DNA of 64,000 nucleotides. Source: Haloterrigena turkmenica DSM 5511. Lineage in GTDB: Archaea > Halobacteriota > Halobacteria > Halobacteriales > Natrialbaceae. The DNA is taken from positions 3,162,001 to 3,226,000 of the forward strand of contig NC_013743.1 of the NCBI RefSeq assembly GCF_000025325.1, written 5' to 3'. The notes beneath the pieces are model-generated. The model saw nothing but the letters and a program-made list of their open reading frames with translations. It was not told the origin of the DNA and did no database searches. The position numbers and the translations under genes were made by a program. How positions within the stretch are numbered: the stretch's first letter is position 1; every line of letters starts with the position of its first letter. Of the stretch, positions 35,884 to 49,801 are shown one piece after another.

Positions 35884-36105
35884 ATGAGCACACAACGCCT
35901 GCAGACCCGACCCGAGACAGAACCGCAGCCCAACCACATCGACGCGCGAACCCGACCGGCCTCGAGCGAGCGAGCCGACTCGCGGACGGCCGTCGAGCGC
36001 TCGCCGCAAACGTTCTCCCACCGGAACACGGCCCAGCTCCAGAACCTGATGGACGAGTTCAACACCGCCTTCGCGGCGACGGGCGATTCGGCGAGCGGTT
36101 CGTAG
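35884..36105 (+). CDS. Small hypothetical protein, Gln/Arg-rich
   Basis: This 73-residue frame has strongly GC-biased third positions, like true genes around it. The N-terminal half is disordered (Thr, Pro, Arg, Glu); the C-terminal half may form a helix (NTAQLQNLMDEFNTAFAA). No family is recognised. It lies at the border of the less GC-rich section of the window. Confidence 0.55.
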   Translation: MSTQRLQTRPETEPQPNHIDARTRPASSERADSRTAVERSPQTFSHRNTAQLQNLMDEFNTAFAATGDSASGS

Positions 36106-36223
36106 ACGACTCGCTTTTCGCGGAATCCAAACCGTCTTTGGAGTACCTCCCGTACGCTCGAGTGGCCGATGACGATTCACTCGCTCCGAGCCGGACTCGG
36201 CACCCGGTCGTGACGAGCCCTAT

Positions 36224-36240
36224 GAGTGCCGAGGCCTCGT
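36224..36240 (-). repeat. Dispersed start-like motif, copy a (degenerate)
   Basis: The sequence GAGTGCCGAGGCC matches the core of the motif seen best at 42024-42064 and 40217-40257. On the reverse strand it reads GCCTCGGCACTCATA, as in copy b, without a usable start codon. It lies about 55 bases beyond the truncated end of the SnoaL-like pseudogene. Confidence 0.5.
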
Positions 36241-36295
36241 AATTAACCTTAGATCTTTCGTGAGAAACGCCGATTCGGACAAAGCACGGTGCAAA

Positions 36296-36622
36296 TTACC
36301 TGTTTCGTGCCCGTTTGAATTCGTGCGTCGGTGGCATCTCGTCGAGTTCTCCCTCATGAGTTCCCGACAGAGTACTCTCTGCCATCACCAGATTTTCGTC
36401 TGCGAGTACTTTATGGACGGTTATCTGGAAGCCCGGAAATGCGTCCGCGATTTCTCGAGCGTCTGCTTCGAAGTTCTCACGACCCTCGACCGTACCGCTC
36501 GTTGGAGACGTGAACGTAAACGATTCAGCAACAAGGTCCGAGAACCGAGAGAACTCTCGATTGTTTCAGATCTCTACGTACTCGTTCGCGAGTTGTTTTG
36601 TATCTACTGTGGTTTCTTCCAT
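36296..36622 (-). pseudogene. SnoaL-like ester cyclase remnant
   Basis: The reverse strand encodes an NTF2/SnoaL-fold protein: about 18 residues ending in ANEYVEI, a TGA at 36566-36568, then NNREFSRFSDLVAESFTFTS and FPGFQITVHKV, with the late segment ESTLSGTHEGEL and MPPTH. Relatives have Trp before the N-N-R/H pair, so TGG has most likely become TGA. The frame also stops early after the PPT motif, losing the last strands. Both defects make it a pseudogene. The rest of 36106-36769 holds only motif copy a and no other recognisable gene. Confidence 0.75.
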
Positions 36623-36769
36623 TGTCTCCCCCTCATTGCCGCAGTTGCTATGTGATAGCACAATACATATCTGTAGGAGTTCGTGCCAGTGCTGAATGAC
36701 ACGTACTTCATCTCAATGTAGCGTCAGGAAGTTTGTCGGAGAGAAAGCGTATCTTCACCAGCGGACTAC

Positions 36770-37603
36770 TTATTTCGTGGCCAACATTGCTGGGTCAAGC
36801 AATTTTCCTTCGTCTTGATAGTCTTCATATAGGTCCTCGGCCCACGATATAATAGCAGGTTCTTCAGCAACTAACAATCCCCGAACGACCCGTTCATCGT
36901 CTCGTTCTTCACCTAACCAAATCGCCACAGAATCATCAAAGAGATGCATATTAAGCGGGATCTCCCCATCGTAGGTCCAGATGCTGTCCCGCTCTGCACG
37001 GGCCCGCAACAGCGGCAGTTGCTCTGACTCTGCAGAGAGGGTCTCGATCCAGTTCGCTTCGATCACAAGTTCGGTATCCAACTGCTGCTCGTTGACCTGC
37101 TCAGAGATAAGCGTCACATATCGAGGCAGCGTGACCTGAACAAGTGAGCGGACCTCGTCCGTAGCGCGAATCTTCTCCGCCACGTGATCGTATGGCCGGG
37201 ACGGGGTCGGCGTTTTCGGCGTTATGATATCGGCGGTGCGGAAATGGCGGTAATCGAGCGAGTGAACAGGTGCTGGGAGCCACTCGATAGCGTCACCGAG
37301 ATGTTGGACTCCCTCCACAGTCTGCAGATAGGCGCGAAACTCAGCGATCATGATTTCCCCCACCTCTGTGAGTTGATATTCACTCCCTTCGGAAGCGATC
37401 CACCCGCGTGATTCGCCGGTATCGAGGATCCGTGCGACGGTAGACCGTGAGGCGCCGGTTTGTTCTGCGAGGTCGCGGCTTGTCGTCGGTCCGGCAGTGA
37501 GCGCCTCGAACACGCGCACGCTGTTCGTTGAATCTGCGAAGAACTGAATCGCGTCCAGTGCCGATTTCGTGTTGGCCGTTAGCGCGTGACGATGACTGGC
37601 CAT
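36770..37603 (-). CDS. Transcriptional regulator, winged helix plus FilR1-type domain
   Basis: This 277-residue protein has an N-terminal winged helix (about 15-75) with recognition segment TTSRDLAEQTGASRSTVARIL. A C-terminal domain (about 130-260) is like that of the methanogenesis regulator FilR1, probably a ligand or filament-signal sensor. It resembles the second regulator at 60749-61546 throughout. The start at 37603 is supported by a TATA-like stretch and a palindrome 24 bases upstream; an ATG at 37681 is the alternative. It faces the DUF1330 gene divergently, which may be its target. Confidence 0.82.
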   Translation of the reverse strand: MASHRHALTANTKSALDAIQFFADSTNSVRVFEALTAGPTTSRDLAEQTGASRSTVARILDTGESRGWIASEGSEYQLTEVGEIMIAEFRAYLQTVEGVQHLGDAIEWLPAPVHSLDYRHFRTADIITPKTPTPSRPYDHVAEKIRATDEVRSLVQVTLPRYVTLISEQVNEQQLDTELVIEANWIETLSAESEQLPLLRARAERDSIWTYDGEIPLNMHLFDDSVAIWLGEERDDERVVRGLLVAEEPAIISWAEDLYEDYQDEGKLLDPAMLATK

Positions 37604-37626
37604 ATCGTACGCTACGTCCGAGTAGT

Positions 37627-37642
37627 CGCAAATACCTTTGCG
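37627..37642. promoter_or_regulatory. Palindrome before the FilR1-type regulator
   Basis: CGCAAA-TACC-TTTGCG is a perfect 6+4+6 inverted repeat 24 bases before the regulator's ATG, overlapping where the basal promoter of a leaderless gene should lie. Autoregulation is a reasonable inference. Confidence 0.45.
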
Positions 37643-37881
37643 GGGGATGGGAAGATTGGCAGGGTCTCGGAATCGTCCCATCGAGTAGGACTATGAATCA
37701 CGTACTGGTATGTGTCACCAAGGAACAGGAGGTGAGAATGAACGATCGAATACGAGGAATACTGAGACGAAGGACAGCCGAGAGACAAGTAATCAGGAGT
37801 ATGCCAACGAAAAGTTGGACAAATAGATGATAAGAAAGACGGACAGAAACCGACGTACGGTGGCAAGAATCAGTGGTGACC

Positions 37882-38355
37882 ATGACCAATGAACCGAATC
37901 CAGACAGCATCGTACGCCGAAAGCTGTTAAAAGCGGGCGCAGTCATAGCAGGCGCACTCGGGATGCTCCCGTCTGCAACTGCTAGCGGCCGTGAGAACGA
38001 GACCCAGACTAACGAAACAACCCAAAGCGAACCTGCTCAATCCCAGAAGGGATACGTGATTGCTGTCGATGGGATAACCGACAGGGACCGGTTTATGAAC
38101 GAATATTTCCCTGTTGCTGCAGAGACAACTGTCGCGCATGACGGAGAGGCGCTCGTTATCTCGTTTGATCCGACTGTGCTTGACGGCGAGTGGGGGCATG
38201 ATCTGACGGTCGCCTTGGAATTCCCATCTGTTCGAGCAGCGAAGGAGTGGTATGCGGATGACGCCTTACAAGAAGTCCGGGAGATTCGCCACGAGACCAC
38301 CGCCTACTCCAATCTGATCGTCACCTCTCAATACTCTCCTGAAGACCGCGCGTAA
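37882..38355 (+). CDS. Tat-exported DUF1330 domain protein
   Basis: This 157-residue protein has a Tat signal (IVRRKLLKAGAVIAGALG) and a probable cleavage after TASG. A Thr/Glu/Gln linker leads to a DUF1330 domain (about 57-155) with GYVIAVDGITD, a central beta sheet and EFPSVRAAKEWYADDALQEV. DUF1330 has a ferredoxin-like dimeric fold of uncertain enzymatic role and is usually cytoplasmic, so export is unusual. Codon use is less GC-biased than in the core genes. Confidence 0.8.
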   Translation: MTNEPNPDSIVRRKLLKAGAVIAGALGMLPSATASGRENETQTNETTQSEPAQSQKGYVIAVDGITDRDRFMNEYFPVAAETTVAHDGEALVISFDPTVLDGEWGHDLTVALEFPSVRAAKEWYADDALQEVREIRHETTAYSNLIVTSQYSPEDRA

Positions 38356-38764
38356 GGAATTTCATCATCTTTTCCTCTAAGACATTCATCTTCTCAGCAC
38401 AATATTCTTCACCTGTATTTCTTAAAGGAGACATCAGACCTATTATCCCCTGAGGACTCAACCGATCCCTCGCCGTTTTTCTCCACCACGTCTCTAGCGA
38501 TCGACCATATCTATATTTCGCTGCCAACTATCCGAAACCGTTGATCGACCGCTGGATGCCGATCCGCCACGGGTGTGGTAATCTGCCACGAGCGTGTCGT
38601 CTACTGTTAATTTCGCGCGGTATGAGTGCCGAGGCCTTCGATTTACTCGTTACGCTTGTACCACCGCCGTTTCTCGATTGGTTCCGCCACTTGAGAACGG
38701 CCGGTCGCCAACGTCACTAACTGCCGATGTATCCGTAGTAAGAATGCGTCGGAAGCAGCTGGGA
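38356..38764. other. Gene-poor spacer with motif copy b
   Basis: This 409-base, comparatively AT-rich spacer shows no convincing gene. At 38621-38640 it carries TATGAGTGCCGAGGCC, a degenerate copy of the dispersed motif; its reverse strand has AAG where copy d has the ATG. A short reverse frame (38321-38527) lacks codon bias and overlaps the DUF1330 end. Confidence 0.5.
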
Positions 38765-39760
38765 TTAGCCCGATCGAGCCGGGACACCGAGAAACTCGAA
38801 CGGCTCAGTCTCGACAAGTTCGTCGGCGACATCGCCGGCGAAGACGTTCGCCTGGTTCTCACCGAGCGATAGCGATCGAACTTCGGCATCGGCTTCGAAG
38901 TCGATCCCGTCGAGGTCCAGCCAGAAAACGTTCGGTGAGAGCGCCGACTCGAAGTAGTAGCGTCGGTCGCGGTGATCGGCGACCGTGCGCCAACGCGTCG
39001 AGGAGATATGCGGTGCGTCCGGCGTACTGATCCCGTACGGCACGGAGACGTTGCGGATCGCGCCGAAGACGCTCGCCGTTGCGGTTCGACGGTTCTGGGT
39101 CTGCGGGATCGCGTCCACGTAGAAACTCGCGCGGGCGAATCGGTCAGCTGGACGATTCGTCCCCGGTAACATGACTGTTCCGCCGATCTCCGACCAATAC
39201 TCGTCGAGTGCGAGTTGTTGGTCGAACGACGGGGAATTCGTCATCACCTGATACTTACGACCGTGGTGGATCGTCAACTCGCCGTCGACGTACTCGAGGA
39301 TGGCACTGTCACCCGTGACGTCCGAGATGGACAGGTGTAGGGTGGCCAACCGGCCTTCGTCCGGGATCTCGTCGGAAACGACCACGAATTCTTTGTTCCG
39401 GTGGTTCTCGACTGCCTCGGCCACCGTCGCGAAGTTGTCGAGGACATACTGCGCCCACAGCGAGATCGACAGTCCAGGTCTGTCGCCATTCCACTCAGGA
39501 TAGTCGGATTCGGTGAGCCACAGGACGTTCGCGACCAGACCTGCCTCGTTCATCCCGTCGGTCGTCGCGATGTCGTACGCGGATGCGACGACACTGCCGT
39601 ACTCGGCGGTCCACGATATCGAGGACGGACCGACTTCGCCCGTTCGCTCCATTCCGCGTGGGAAGGCCCAAATGTTCGTTCCGATCTCGCCGTGCCAGTC
39701 CATCGACCGGCCAGTGAGCACGATATTCTCGGGTCCGAGATACACTAATCGCGTACACAT
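38765..39760 (-). CDS. Choloylglycine hydrolase-family Ntn amidase
   Basis: This 331-residue linear-amide C-N hydrolase is of the bile-salt hydrolase / penicillin V acylase family. The mature nucleophile is Cys2, exposed by Met removal. Supporting residues are Arg18 and Asp21 (GRSMDW), Asn78 (VANVLWL), Asn175 (VMTNSP) and Arg207 (ADRFARA), so the active site looks complete. There is no signal peptide. In archaea the substrate is unknown; N-acyl amides such as acyl-homoserine lactones are possible. A GGAGGGAG Shine-Dalgarno-like run precedes the ATG. Confidence 0.9.
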   Translation of the reverse strand: MCTRLVYLGPENIVLTGRSMDWHGEIGTNIWAFPRGMERTGEVGPSSISWTAEYGSVVASAYDIATTDGMNEAGLVANVLWLTESDYPEWNGDRPGLSISLWAQYVLDNFATVAEAVENHRNKEFVVVSDEIPDEGRLATLHLSISDVTGDSAILEYVDGELTIHHGRKYQVMTNSPSFDQQLALDEYWSEIGGTVMLPGTNRPADRFARASFYVDAIPQTQNRRTATASVFGAIRNVSVPYGISTPDAPHISSTRWRTVADHRDRRYYFESALSPNVFWLDLDGIDFEADAEVRSLSLGENQANVFAGDVADELVETEPFEFLGVPARSG

Positions 39761-40216
39761 CTACGATCTCCCTCCGGTCTCTCGGCCGTTGTGTGCCATA
39801 GGCCAGAACATAATTCTTCCCTACTTCGATCAGGAACATAAGTTGCATTCGGTCAGAACTGATACGTTCTGGCTGGGAAGACGACAGTCTCTCGAGTTCG
39901 GAAACGAGCGCGACGGTCGGATGGGCGACGTGTCCGATGTGGCTCTCTTGGTCCGCAATCACACACGGAACTGACTCGGCCATCGGCAGCAGGTCTGCGT
40001 GCGCGGTGCTGGTACCGAGAGTTCGATAAATCGACCTGGTCGTGTCATCTCCAATATCAACCGTGCTGTCAGACAGTGAAATCAGTCGGCGTATGACGAT
40101 TCACCTGGCCCAGAAACTTGTCCGAGAAGGCGCACGTAGCCGTCCTCGTTCTCGAGTGGTCCTGTCGGCTAACGTCTTCAGATCAACATCTGATTCACTT
40201 CAAGAATACATGTAAG

Positions 40217-40257
40217 TCGTTCCTGTTCGAGTGCCGAGGACACCGATTTACGCGTAC
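40217..40257 (-). repeat. Dispersed start-like motif, copy c
   Basis: It matches copy d at nearly every base over about 40 positions around CCTGTTCGAGTGCCGAGG. On the reverse strand GTG TCC TCG GCA CTC GAA replaces the ATG GCC start of copy d, and the frame ends 22 codons later. The surrounding spacer 39761-40446 contains no other gene I can support. Confidence 0.7.
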
Positions 40258-40446
40258 CAGTTCGGGATCTGTATCGAAATATGCGACTACAACCGACACA
40301 TCGTGCTGGATAGAGAGGCCTATATTGCACAGCGATTCATATTGGCTGAAATATTACCACGCTGAAGGGTAAAGATCCGACTGCTACTCCCTGTAGCAGC
40401 GCGTAGCAAAGCGCAACGCGAACCTCGTTACGTCCCCGCTTTCGCT

Positions 40447-41571
40447 TCACTGGGGCCGGTTCGGAATGTCCTTATCCTCGTATCCTGCCGCACGAAAGAA
40501 GCGCCGTTCGATGATTCTAGCGGTGATGTCGATGAGGTCTTCGTCCTCTTCGGAGACGTCCGCAAAGAGCCCGAGTGGGATTTGTGCCGCCGCCATGTCT
40601 TCGTGGCCGCCGGCAGACCCGACGTCGCCGAACACTTCCTCGAGGAGATTGCCGAGATCGACCCGCGAGTCCGTCGATCGGCCGCTGATGTGTATCTCGT
40701 TTCCGCTGATGCCGAAGACGACGACCGTCTCGACGCCTTCCAGGTCCAGAAGGTAATCGGCTGCCTGCGGGAGTACGTCTCGTTCGGAGCTCCGGCCGAC
40801 GGTGGCGACGAGATATGCCGACTGGACAGTCCGGGTCCGAATGGCTTCCGCGATCGCGTCGACAGTAATCTCTGACAGGGGCGGATCGTTCATCTTCTTG
40901 AGGAGATTGAGGTCAACGAAGGGATGAAGATACAGCGCCGCCTCGTACTCCTTTTCCGTGACATTTCGGAGAAAGTCGAGGGTCTCGCGTCGAATAGCGA
41001 ACAGCAACGCCGTGGCGAGTTCCGCGTCGAGTGGAAGGTCGAGCGCGCGGTGATACTCGACGATGATCGTCGTCGTGCTGCTGTACTCCCCGCGTACGTC
41101 GACGAATTCCGCCGGCGGTTCGTCGCCCGGATGGTGGTCGATTACGATATCGACCTCGGTATCGGGCTTGAGACCGTTGTTTCGTCCGGGGATTGAACAG
41201 TCCACGAGCGCGATACGGTCGTATCCTTCGACGGCATCGGCGGTGAACTCCCGAAGGTCGATGTCGAGCAAGTTCACGAACACTCGGTTCTGCGGATGAG
41301 TGACCTCGCCGCCGTAAAAGAACTCGATGTCCCAGACGCTGGCGTACTCGGCGACGCGTTTCAACGCCAGCGCGCTCGCTAAGCAGTCAGGGTCCGGGTT
41401 GTCGTGACAGACGACCGCGAGCGATTCCGTCTCTTCTAATAGTTCGACCAGCCGATCGGCGCGCGACCGTTCGATGGATTCGGACTCGGCCGGTTCGGAG
41501 TCTTCGAGTTCAGTGTCGAACGACTCCGACTGCGGTTCTGATCCGGAGGACGTTTGATTATTGTCAGCCAT
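40447..41571 (-). CDS. DHH-family phosphoesterase (NrnA/RecJ-like)
   Basis: This 374-residue protein has an acidic disordered N-terminus of about 45 residues and a DHH domain with HDNPDPDCLAS (motif I), VDCS (motif II) and IDHHPGD (DHH motif III). A DHHA1 domain with GSAGGHEDMAAAQIPLG binds the substrate. Proteins of this set degrade short RNAs or cyclic dinucleotide products, or act on 3'-phosphoadenosine phosphate. The precise substrate cannot be chosen. No membrane segment is present. Confidence 0.9.
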   Translation of the reverse strand: MADNNQTSSGSEPQSESFDTELEDSEPAESESIERSRADRLVELLEETESLAVVCHDNPDPDCLASALALKRVAEYASVWDIEFFYGGEVTHPQNRVFVNLLDIDLREFTADAVEGYDRIALVDCSIPGRNNGLKPDTEVDIVIDHHPGDEPPAEFVDVRGEYSSTTTIIVEYHRALDLPLDAELATALLFAIRRETLDFLRNVTEKEYEAALYLHPFVDLNLLKKMNDPPLSEITVDAIAEAIRTRTVQSAYLVATVGRSSERDVLPQAADYLLDLEGVETVVVFGISGNEIHISGRSTDSRVDLGNLLEEVFGDVGSAGGHEDMAAAQIPLGLFADVSEEDEDLIDITARIIERRFFRAAGYEDKDIPNRPQ

Positions 41572-41813
41572 GGTCTGTTACGCCGAATCTGATCCGATGC
41601 AGGTCGATATCTTCGGTCAGCGACTCTCTTAGACCCTGAATCAGGAAAAAGACTCAGTCGTGGTCTAAGTTATGTCATATATTGGTAGGGCCCGGAAGAG
41701 GATAAGCTAGTTGCATGAACGGAGACCCGTCTCACTGAGACAAGAACGGTAATTTTGACGAGTTGCTTAGTCAACTCCGGTCAATCAAGATTAAGTAATG
41801 AACGTTACAGTAC

Positions 41814-42050
41814 TTATCGTTCGATCGATCGCTCCGTAAACCTCTTCAACATCTGCTCCGACCCGACGATTCGCACGCTCGAAATGGCCGATTCGGCGGC
41901 GATCCTGCGCGCCCGAAACAGTTTCTGGAATGTATGCTCCCCATCGTGTTCGAAACTACTGACGGGGCCAGCAGGTATCTCTGCGGCCGACTTCTCTGGA
42001 CAGGATACGTTGGTACATGCACATCGTTCCTGTTCGAGTGCCGAGGCCAT
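41814..42050 (-). CDS. Hypothetical short protein beginning in motif copy d
   Basis: This 78-residue reverse frame has its first codons (MASALEQER) inside dispersed-motif copy d. Codon bias is weak in the first half and better in the second (FRARRIAAESAISSV). Four Cys in the first 20 residues could bind metal but form no known motif. It may be a decayed gene or a chance frame. Nothing else is supported in 41572-42170. Confidence 0.35.
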   Translation of the reverse strand: MASALEQERCACTNVSCPEKSAAEIPAGPVSSFEHDGEHTFQKLFRARRIAAESAISSVRIVGSEQMLKRFTERSIER

Positions 42051-48483: not shown

Positions 48484-48742
48484 CGACCGGTGTGGCCGTG
48501 GGGTTCTCGGCACGCCGCCAATGCGACACGTGTGGAAAAAAGCCGGGACACGGATTCGCATGGAGTGCTTGTCGAGGCTGGTGTCTTCCGTTCGACGACA
48601 GGCGGCCGATACGAAGATCCGTCCATGAGCGAAATCCGTCGTTCTGTGGGAGTATTTGTGCTGTGGACTGAGGGACGGTATACTCGAGTTCGGCTGCTAC
48701 CGTCGAGCTAGCGCTCCCCACTCCGCAAGGTTCATTATCCAT

Positions 48743-48755
48743 ATAGGTAACCTAT
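48743..48755. promoter_or_regulatory. Perfect palindrome before the nuclease-like gene
   Basis: ATAGGT-A-ACCTAT ends five bases before the ATG at 48761 and lies just after a TATA-like TTCATTATCC. A protein bound here would cover the start site, which is typical of a repressor operator. Confidence 0.5.
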
Positions 48756-48760
48756 CTGTA

Positions 48761-49801
48761 ATGTATCTCTATACGCCGGACGAAATCGATAGAGAGCGCG
48801 CCCATCACCAGGCGGTTATTCAGGGAGCGGGCGATTTGGACGTCAAACGGATCGGGAACCTGGGCGAGCTCGCGTTCGAACAGTTCTGTCGGGAGTATCT
48901 TCCCGTCGAGATGTGGGAGTGGGAGAACGAGGAAGCGGTCCGGCGTTGCAACCCGGAAAGTTTCTCCGGTCACGACTTCGAGGTCTTCGGCTACGAGATC
49001 GACGTAAAAACCTCGAGGGACGTCTCTGCCTTCCGTCCTGCAAATCTCTTGGAAAACGATCCAGACGACGATATCATCGTCATGGTCTGGCATCGAGACA
49101 ACGAGGACGCACTCATCCTCCTTGGCTGGGAACGCACTGAAACGCTCGAATCGAAGGTCAAAACCCAGGAGGCGTATTCCGGCGAAGAACCCGAGAAACT
49201 CGCGCACTTGGCGGCCCGTCCGATGAACGAGTTGCACGATATCGGACCGAACACGGCTCACCTCAACCAGAAACCGGAGAACCCGTTCTCTTCCGGCGAT
49301 CGCGTGGCGAAGAACGGAGACGGTGATGGCTCGGTCGCAGTCGTCGTTGAGGTGTTGCCACCGGAGAAAAACACCACCGCTTACGGGCAAGAGATGGACG
49401 GCGAAGCAGTGAACGTAGCGTTTCCGAATATGCTCGACGATGGCCCCGGAAACTGGCGAGAGATCCATCCCGCGAAACTAGCTTCCTACTGTGACGATCA
49501 GAATATCAAACTCTACACCTACAAACACACGAATCTCGAGTACCCCGAAAATCCCTTCACTCCGGGCGACTACGTCATCAAACCCGATTACGAAGATCCG
49601 GATTTAGCAGTGGTTCTCGAGGTCACAGGGGATAGCGACGAGGACCGAGAGATTTCCATTGCCTTCTGCAAGCACCTCGAGGAGGAATGGGGCGAGCAGC
49701 CGTACGTACTACCAGCTGATCTCCGTTCACGTTGTGACGAGGCCGGTATCAAATCGTACTCCTACGATTACGACGAACTCAGCTTTGAGCATCAATTCTA
49801 A
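48761..49801 (+). CDS. PD-(D/E)XK-like nuclease domain with two tandem C-terminal repeats
   Basis: This 346-residue, acidic protein has an N-terminal domain (about 25-125) resembling a PD-(D/E)XK nuclease: Glu36 in helix NLGELAFEQFC, Asp72 in GHDFEVFG, then the strand EIDVKTS with Asp81 and Lys83, followed by IIVMVWHR and ALILLGW strands. Two similar segments follow (about 173-260 and 263-346), each starting NPF-x2-GD-x-V and ending with Pro-Ala-(K/D)-L, Cys-Asp and a Tyr-rich strand; they may bind a ligand or nucleic acid. No methylase or helicase is near. Function is inferred from motifs only. Confidence 0.6.
   Translation: MYLYTPDEIDRERAHHQAVIQGAGDLDVKRIGNLGELAFEQFCREYLPVEMWEWENEEAVRRCNPESFSGHDFEVFGYEIDVKTSRDVSAFRPANLLENDPDDDIIVMVWHRDNEDALILLGWERTETLESKVKTQEAYSGEEPEKLAHLAARPMNELHDIGPNTAHLNQKPENPFSSGDRVAKNGDGDGSVAVVVEVLPPEKNTTAYGQEMDGEAVNVAFPNMLDDGPGNWREIHPAKLASYCDDQNIKLYTYKHTNLEYPENPFTPGDYVIKPDYEDPDLAVVLEVTGDSDEDREISIAFCKHLEEEWGEQPYVLPADLRSRCDEAGIKSYSYDYDELSFEHQF

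Follow-up and report, generated by a model that had tools for sequence, protein, structure and literature searches.

Stand-alone PD-(D/E)XK nucleases without a methyltransferase are found in the BisI family, which includes NhoI and Eco15I, and among type IV enzymes of the Mrr and PADLOC mREase_IV kind, and in this respect both resemble the haloarchaeal protein analysed here. I-Ssp6803I, which gives the highest structural score for the nuclease core of this protein, is an intron-encoded, site-specific homing endonuclease without reader repeats. The predicted fold of the two C-terminal repeats is shared with AGDP3, ADCP1, the UHRF1 TTD and SETDB1, and Tudor and Agenet folds are best known as eukaryotic readers of methyl-lysine. 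The BisI enzymes read methylcytosine through the catalytic domain itself, and the extra C-terminal domain of Eco15I, which was expected to be the reader, has no effect on methyl sensing (PMC11347163). The m6A-dependent endonuclease HHPV4I of pleolipovirus HHPV4 (PMC10101028) provides a further parallel, being likewise a lone nuclease that travels as cargo in a pleolipovirus of haloarchaea.

The protein is encoded within a window of 64,000 nucleotides from Haloterrigena turkmenica DSM 5511 and departs from each of these systems. The BisI enzymes are among the best structural matches to the core of both models that were built (Z 5.9-7.3), and Eco15I likewise bears an additional domain at its C-terminus, but a profile search of PDB sequences gave no match between the families at E<=10, the C-terminal part here is a tandem SH3/Tudor-like repeat, and the QxK of the BisI enzymes is replaced by DVK, whereas NhoI and Eco15I carry QVK and QIK (PMC11347163). 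HHPV4I is unrelated in make-up, with an SRA-wH-HNH arrangement in contrast to PD-(D/E)XK and Tudor-like repeats, and neither Mrr_cat nor any of the PADLOC models matches the family protein. The tandem Tudor and Agenet readers are eukaryotic methyl-lysine readers with no sequence relation to the repeats. The reading favoured here, with a probability of about 50%, is that of a single-gene restriction nuclease, probably modification-dependent (type IV-like), which is moved between genomes as defence or superinfection-exclusion cargo.

Table 1. Features of the gene and its upstream region, in window positions
Feature	Position	Strand	Basis
TATA-like element, probable leaderless promoter	48731..48738	+	AT-rich element, equal distance from start in homologues
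Palindrome ATAGGT-A-ACCTAT	48743..48755		Exists but is not kept in homologues; taken as chance
Whole gene, 346 aa, ATG start	48761..49801	+	Open reading frame
Predicted nuclease domain, residues 1-165, PD-(D/E)XK core	48761..49255	+	AF2 model, PDB matches
Codon of Glu36, helix acidic residue of putative active site	48866..48868	+	Invariant
Codon of Asp72, 'PD' position	48974..48976	+	Invariant
Codons of Asp81-Val-Lys83, (D/E)XK motif	49001..49009	+	D81 and K83 invariant, even in 23-36% identical relatives
Repeat 1, residues 166-262, predicted SH3/Tudor-like barrel	49256..49546	+	BLAST and hhalign; tandem Agenet/Tudor match
Repeat 2, residues 263-346, predicted SH3/Tudor-like barrel	49547..49798	+	BLAST and hhalign; barrel matches at 262-345

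The features of the gene are listed in Table 1. A preliminary description of this DNA began the gene at 48743, which marks the left end of the palindrome, the ATG being at 48761; start and length are the same in the homologues. It also placed the gene in a gene-poor section with broken genes. Both flanks are indeed intergenic, with 277 nt upstream and approximately 640 nt downstream that include one small membrane ORF, but the neighbouring genes, named by eye as GH2, AIM24-like and PQQ-like, have open reading frames, which leaves this claim weak. The genome holds one copy of the family gene. Elsewhere in the window, the only RNA family match is the Rfam C/D-box RNA sR-tMet (36164-36236, +; 66 bits, gathering 50), and the region 36000-42000 has a low GC content of 0.54-0.57 compared with about 0.65. 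By eye, this low-GC stretch contains a winged-helix regulator (36770-37681, -), a choloylglycine-hydrolase-like protein (38765-39760, -) and a DHH-like phosphoesterase (40447-41571, -).

As first described, the palindrome is separated from the ATG by five bases; it had been taken for the gene's own operator, suited to tight repression. When the 60 nt that hold it are shuffled, 7% of the resulting sequences contain an equally good palindrome. Unrelated palindromes of some kind occur in 14 of 83 homologue upstream regions, and ATAGGT-A-ACCTAT is absent upstream of every homologue, including the one with 91% identity, so it is private to the copy in the window. Because it is unconserved and shuffling yields its equal at this rate, the palindrome is treated as a chance feature, and the operator reading was dropped. 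The conserved upstream element is a putative TATA box, not the palindrome: homologues carry an AT-rich TATA-like box approximately 23-31 nt before the start. A TATA-like box at such a distance is the expectation for a leaderless haloarchaeal promoter.

The PD-(D/E)XK pattern recognised at the outset (Glu36, Asp72, Asp81, Lys83) lies at the residues named and is invariant in 62 relatives. The four residues do not vary across 66 sequences, in which identity falls as low as 23%; four distant relatives (23-36% identity), whose C-termini are unrelated or missing, are among those that keep the catalytic set. Loss of the Asp and Lys residues in the family had been named as an outcome that would speak against a nuclease; the opposite is seen, with D72, D81 and K83 invariant. 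The structure prediction proposed as a check gives a PD-(D/E)XK core for residues 1-165 and SH3/Tudor-like barrels for the repeats. In this AlphaFold model of the 346-aa protein (mean pLDDT 85.6, pTM 0.83), a long helix at residues 26-46 bears E36, and strands at 73-75 and 78-85 bear D72, D81 and K83.

The best PDB match to the modelled core is I-Ssp6803I (Z 8.1, rmsd 4.5, 114 aligned), followed by SPARDA (Z 7.5, rmsd 3.3, 115 aligned), Eco15I-Ntd (Z 7.3, rmsd 4.0, 110 aligned) and NhoI (Z 6.7, rmsd 3.7, 108 aligned), a Z of 7-8 not being decisive by itself. Further matches in the structure comparison are DXO1 and the influenza PA endonuclease; that a family is missing from these fold matches is given no weight as a sign of unrelatedness. 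A separate model of a relative with 25% identity has a core pLDDT of about 80 and an unreliable C-terminal half (pLDDT approximately 30), and its core matches PD-(D/E)XK enzymes only, with I-Ssp6803I at Z 7.3 and NhoI and Eco15I at ranks 2-5. As the fold matches of the two models agree with the invariant catalytic residues, the protein is assigned to the PD-(D/E)XK superfamily as a predicted nuclease. The tailed haloviruses HHTV-2 and HCTV-2 have small uncharacterised proteins (BFVD R4TKP5 and R4TA73) that also match the core structurally (E 1e-4 to 6e-4, 18-22% identity) and are possibly virus-encoded PD-(D/E)XK nucleases. Among the distant relatives, three share the nuclease core and differ in the C-terminal half (L082:905-1882, -; L083:6956-8020, +; L084:6751-7815, +), and one is the nuclease alone, with 203 aa (L085:6975-7583, +).

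The scores of I-Ssp6803I in both models, together with patchy spread and decay, would fit a selfish mobile gene akin to those of homing endonucleases. This reading is very improbable, as the shared target site that such an element would have was not found: the flanks have no common 14-mer outside one syntenic Halorubrum context, and a homing element with a common insertion site was accordingly rejected. The gene is free-standing between other genes, at varied sites and with its own probable promoter, and two C-terminal barrels are unnecessary for homing.

The duplicated C-terminal segments of the preliminary description are a true repeat, with 34% identity and a BLAST E of 1e-15 for the pair, and hhalign profile-profile comparison of repeat 1 with repeat 2 gives a probability of 99.6% (E 5e-25). 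The Cys-Asp...Tyr-rich end that was described with them is present, but it is not a separate feature and closes each repeat (SYCDDQNIKLYTYKH and SRCDEAGIKSYSYDY). The best PDB match of the repeat pair is the tandem Agenet protein AGDP3 (E 2e-4, probability 1.00), with the match to 7yta extending over 179 alignment columns at E 2e-4, and the next matches are the tandem Tudors of SETDB1, UHRF1 and ADCP1. Repeat 2 (residues 262-345) matches Tudor, chromo, KOW and other SH3-like domains by VIA-align, and no Pfam match at E<=10 was obtained for the known reader domains SRA, EVE, YTH, wH and NEco. The repeats are modelled as tandem Tudor/Agenet-like SH3 barrels whose fold and tandem arrangement fit the Royal domains. 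In a prokaryotic nuclease, the ligand of such predicted barrels is more likely to be DNA than methyl-lysine.

Two repeats are present in most members of the family, and one in short forms of approximately 264 aa from Haloferax, Halobaculum, Halolamina and some others, which are without repeat 2. This variation in repeat number and in the C-terminus suggests a core with exchangeable recognition modules that are swapped. The dN/dS of the whole gene is 0.02-0.14 against homologues with 84-91% identity, and where dS is unsaturated the repeats (0.04-0.14) evolve faster than the core (0.02-0.05); from the values for both parts it follows that the gene is kept functional by purifying selection. Faster change in the repeats is what a sensor might show, and this bears on the main rival to the favoured reading, a conditional effector nuclease as in SPARDA. 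Such a protein would be inactive at first; binding of an infection signal (a protein, an RNA or a DNA structure) by the repeats would release it to cut DNA or RNA indiscriminately, resulting in abortive infection. SPARDA is among the best structural matches, and the gene is solitary and has no antitoxin, but it has no linked sensor partner or signal synthase, and single-repeat and repeat-free relatives exist; this rival is considered unlikely.

Searches of Pfam, NCBIfam, PADLOC and PDB sequences with the protein returned nothing usable; the profile search of PDB sequences gave two weak matches that look spurious and none to the BisI enzymes at E<=10. The sole catalogued family to match is PHROG 18072 (E 1e-166 to 1e-176), which is the family itself and is listed just as 'unknown function', so in the libraries searched the suggestion of a system not yet described holds.

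A search of haloarchaeal genomes, also proposed in advance, found the family across the Halobacteria. Matches occur in 125 of the 391 genomes of the class, and by the analyst's reading of the match table these comprise a near-complete copy in 98 (about 25%), fragments only in 23 (approximately 6%) and distant relatives only in 4. The family is confined to Halobacteria, and no member outside the order was found in a wider sample of the phylum. The family members include 46 loci from named GTDB genomes, 12 plasmid records and one virus, Haloferax virus Halfgib1, which is the sole carrier in the phage collection; scans of IMG/VR viral metagenomes returned no relatives.

The protein in the window shares 91% identity with its counterpart in another genus and 85-87% with those of Haladaptatus and Halogeometricum, which belong to other families, but only 72% with the copy of a congener, located one megabase from the window's locus. 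The remnant of a decayed copy lies close to the same flanking genes in another congener. Families are mixed in the gene tree, which together with the high identity across families and the low identity to the congener indicates that the gene moves horizontally. No clean empty site was found in congeners, where the neighbourhood is rearranged; two genomes (G254 and G356) lack the family gene there and have the AIM24-like gene adjoining genes from further along. A gene split by apparent inserted DNA, as in decay in progress, is seen in Halopiger and Haloterrigena H1 (L071:8001-9614, +; L072), one example having 182 residues of the family and then a foreign reading frame. A housekeeping nuclease, for example one of DNA repair, with no part in defence would suit the strong purifying selection and the ordinary neighbours at half of the loci, but is quite unlikely for a gene that is limited to about a quarter of the genomes, is transferred between families, is carried by a virus and decays frequently.

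The neighbours within about 8 kb were charted at 81 distinct loci. Pleolipovirus hallmark genes lie beside 16 of the 81, where the family gene occupies one slot with an NTPase gene on one side and wHTH and integrase genes on the other, and recognisable defence genes are found at 20. These defence neighbours are Mrr, D12 methylase, McrB-type AAA_5, PDC-S11, PDC-S27, PDC-S37 and UvrD/PD-(D/E)XK pairs, with Mrr_cat and D12 methylase at seven loci and McrB-type AAA_5 at five. Pleolipovirus, defence or integrase genes are found at 40 of the 81 loci, and the other half, including that of the window, have ordinary neighbours. The nearest neighbours match 125 PADLOC families compared with 12 for 137 random genes taken mostly from carrier genomes (E 1e-8), a ratio of families, not genes, that overstates the number of genes. 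The window's locus was considered as a provirus remnant and rejected, as no other Halfgib1 protein has a match in the window.

Two neighbourhoods recur. At seven loci (L044, L046, L048, L050, L052, L055 and L079; six Halorubrum and one Halobellus), Mrr_cat lies 78-87 nt downstream, accompanied by DUF7226 and a convergent D12 adenine methylase, and this could be a composite defence cassette. At five others (L036, L042, L045, L047 and L087), a large McrB-type AAA_5 ATPase recurs near the gene with a partner of approximately 450 aa that has no Pfam match and may be an undescribed McrC-like component.

Halfgib1 is an induced provirus recovered from an archival virus stock (PMC7911831), and this pleolipovirus carries the family gene as cargo, adjoining a Dcm (C5) methylase. 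In the type strain of Halorubrum lacusprofundi, a family member is located on plasmid pHLAC01, which strain ACAM34_UNSW has lost; virus sensitivity went along with the loss of this plasmid and of part of CHR2, and the authors favour CRISPR as the explanation (PMC10544981); as regards the family gene this is only a correlation. The defence role proposed for the gene is supported indirectly, by virus cargo, defence-island neighbours, patchiness, horizontal transfer and decay. Of the stand-alone, repressed nuclease with duplicated repeats that had been put forward as a defence system, conservation and the models bear out the nuclease and the repeats, and the operator falls away.

The gene had been called solitary, and this solitude is general in the family, with no constant companion in the form of a methyltransferase or an antitoxin. 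By the analyst's reading of the tables for 40 carriers and 40 non-carriers, the C5-methyltransferase PF00145 is found in 18 carriers compared with 21 non-carriers, the N6/N4-methyltransferase PF01555 in 37 compared with 35, and the D12 methylase PF02086 in 11 of each, and none of the three is constantly adjacent to the gene or co-occurs with it. A type II enzyme that cuts unmodified sites, with host protection coming from an orphan methyltransferase that is unlinked or nearly universal (e.g. the CTAG enzyme) or from the Halfgib1 Dcm, is an unlikely alternative given these counts. In its favour are the Dcm gene directly upstream in Halfgib1 and one Haloferax-like genome, the 37 carriers with an N6/N4-methyltransferase, and the widespread CTAG orphan methylase (PMC6471742). 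The C5-methyltransferase is missing from 22 of the 40 carriers and is not commoner than in non-carriers, so the Halfgib1 Dcm cannot be a general partner; PF01555 is absent from three carriers and PF02086 from G000. Constant type II pairing is thereby excluded for the three methyltransferase families, with the Dcm pair of Halfgib1 and the Haloferax-like genome as the exception.

Without a methyltransferase to protect the host, selection of the target is most likely by a mark on foreign DNA, and the structural nearness of the BisI enzymes and the precedent of HHPV4I point in the same direction, to modification dependence. Among the established means by which a nuclease lacking a protective methylase can distinguish self from foreign DNA, such dependence is the simplest. 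The family would work most like a type IV enzyme without a cognate methyltransferase. From the domain make-up, the invariant residues, the purifying selection, the horizontal spread, the provirus and defence setting and the lack of methyltransferase co-occurrence, all of which are observed, we infer the cleavage of DNA, its target mark, an antiviral effect and what the repeats read. The N-terminal PD-(D/E)XK domain would cut DNA, and the paired Tudor/Agenet-like SH3 barrels would help to bind and select the target. Selection would be based on a mark present on foreign DNA and missing in the host, and either the barrels or the nuclease core itself would read it. As cargo of pleolipoviruses and plasmids, the gene would allow its carrier to exclude competing viruses or plasmids. 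Against the modification-dependent reading count the half of the loci without a virus or defence neighbour and the extra domain of Eco15I, which is not a reader. The position of the Halfgib1 gene beside a C5-methyltransferase also counts against it, as the nuclease would be suicidal if it cut the product of that enzyme. A more specific proposal, which we put forward tentatively as possible but doubtful, is a one-gene restriction class in which the tandem Tudor/Agenet-like reader, of a fold that reads methyl marks in eukaryotic chromatin, recognises the target DNA or its mark and which pleolipoviruses spread as a superinfection-exclusion weapon.

The family is common, being found in about a quarter of the sampled haloarchaeal genomes, strongly selected and virus-borne, yet it is absent from functional libraries. 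If it is a restriction nuclease, a widespread DNA-defence gene would be added to the haloarchaea, whose RM genes have a patchy, poorly explained distribution, and the family would be the second case after HHPV4I of a pleolipovirus nuclease directed against competitors. If the Tudor-like barrels read modified DNA, they would represent a reader module beyond the PUA-type (SRA/EVE/YTH) and winged-helix readers.
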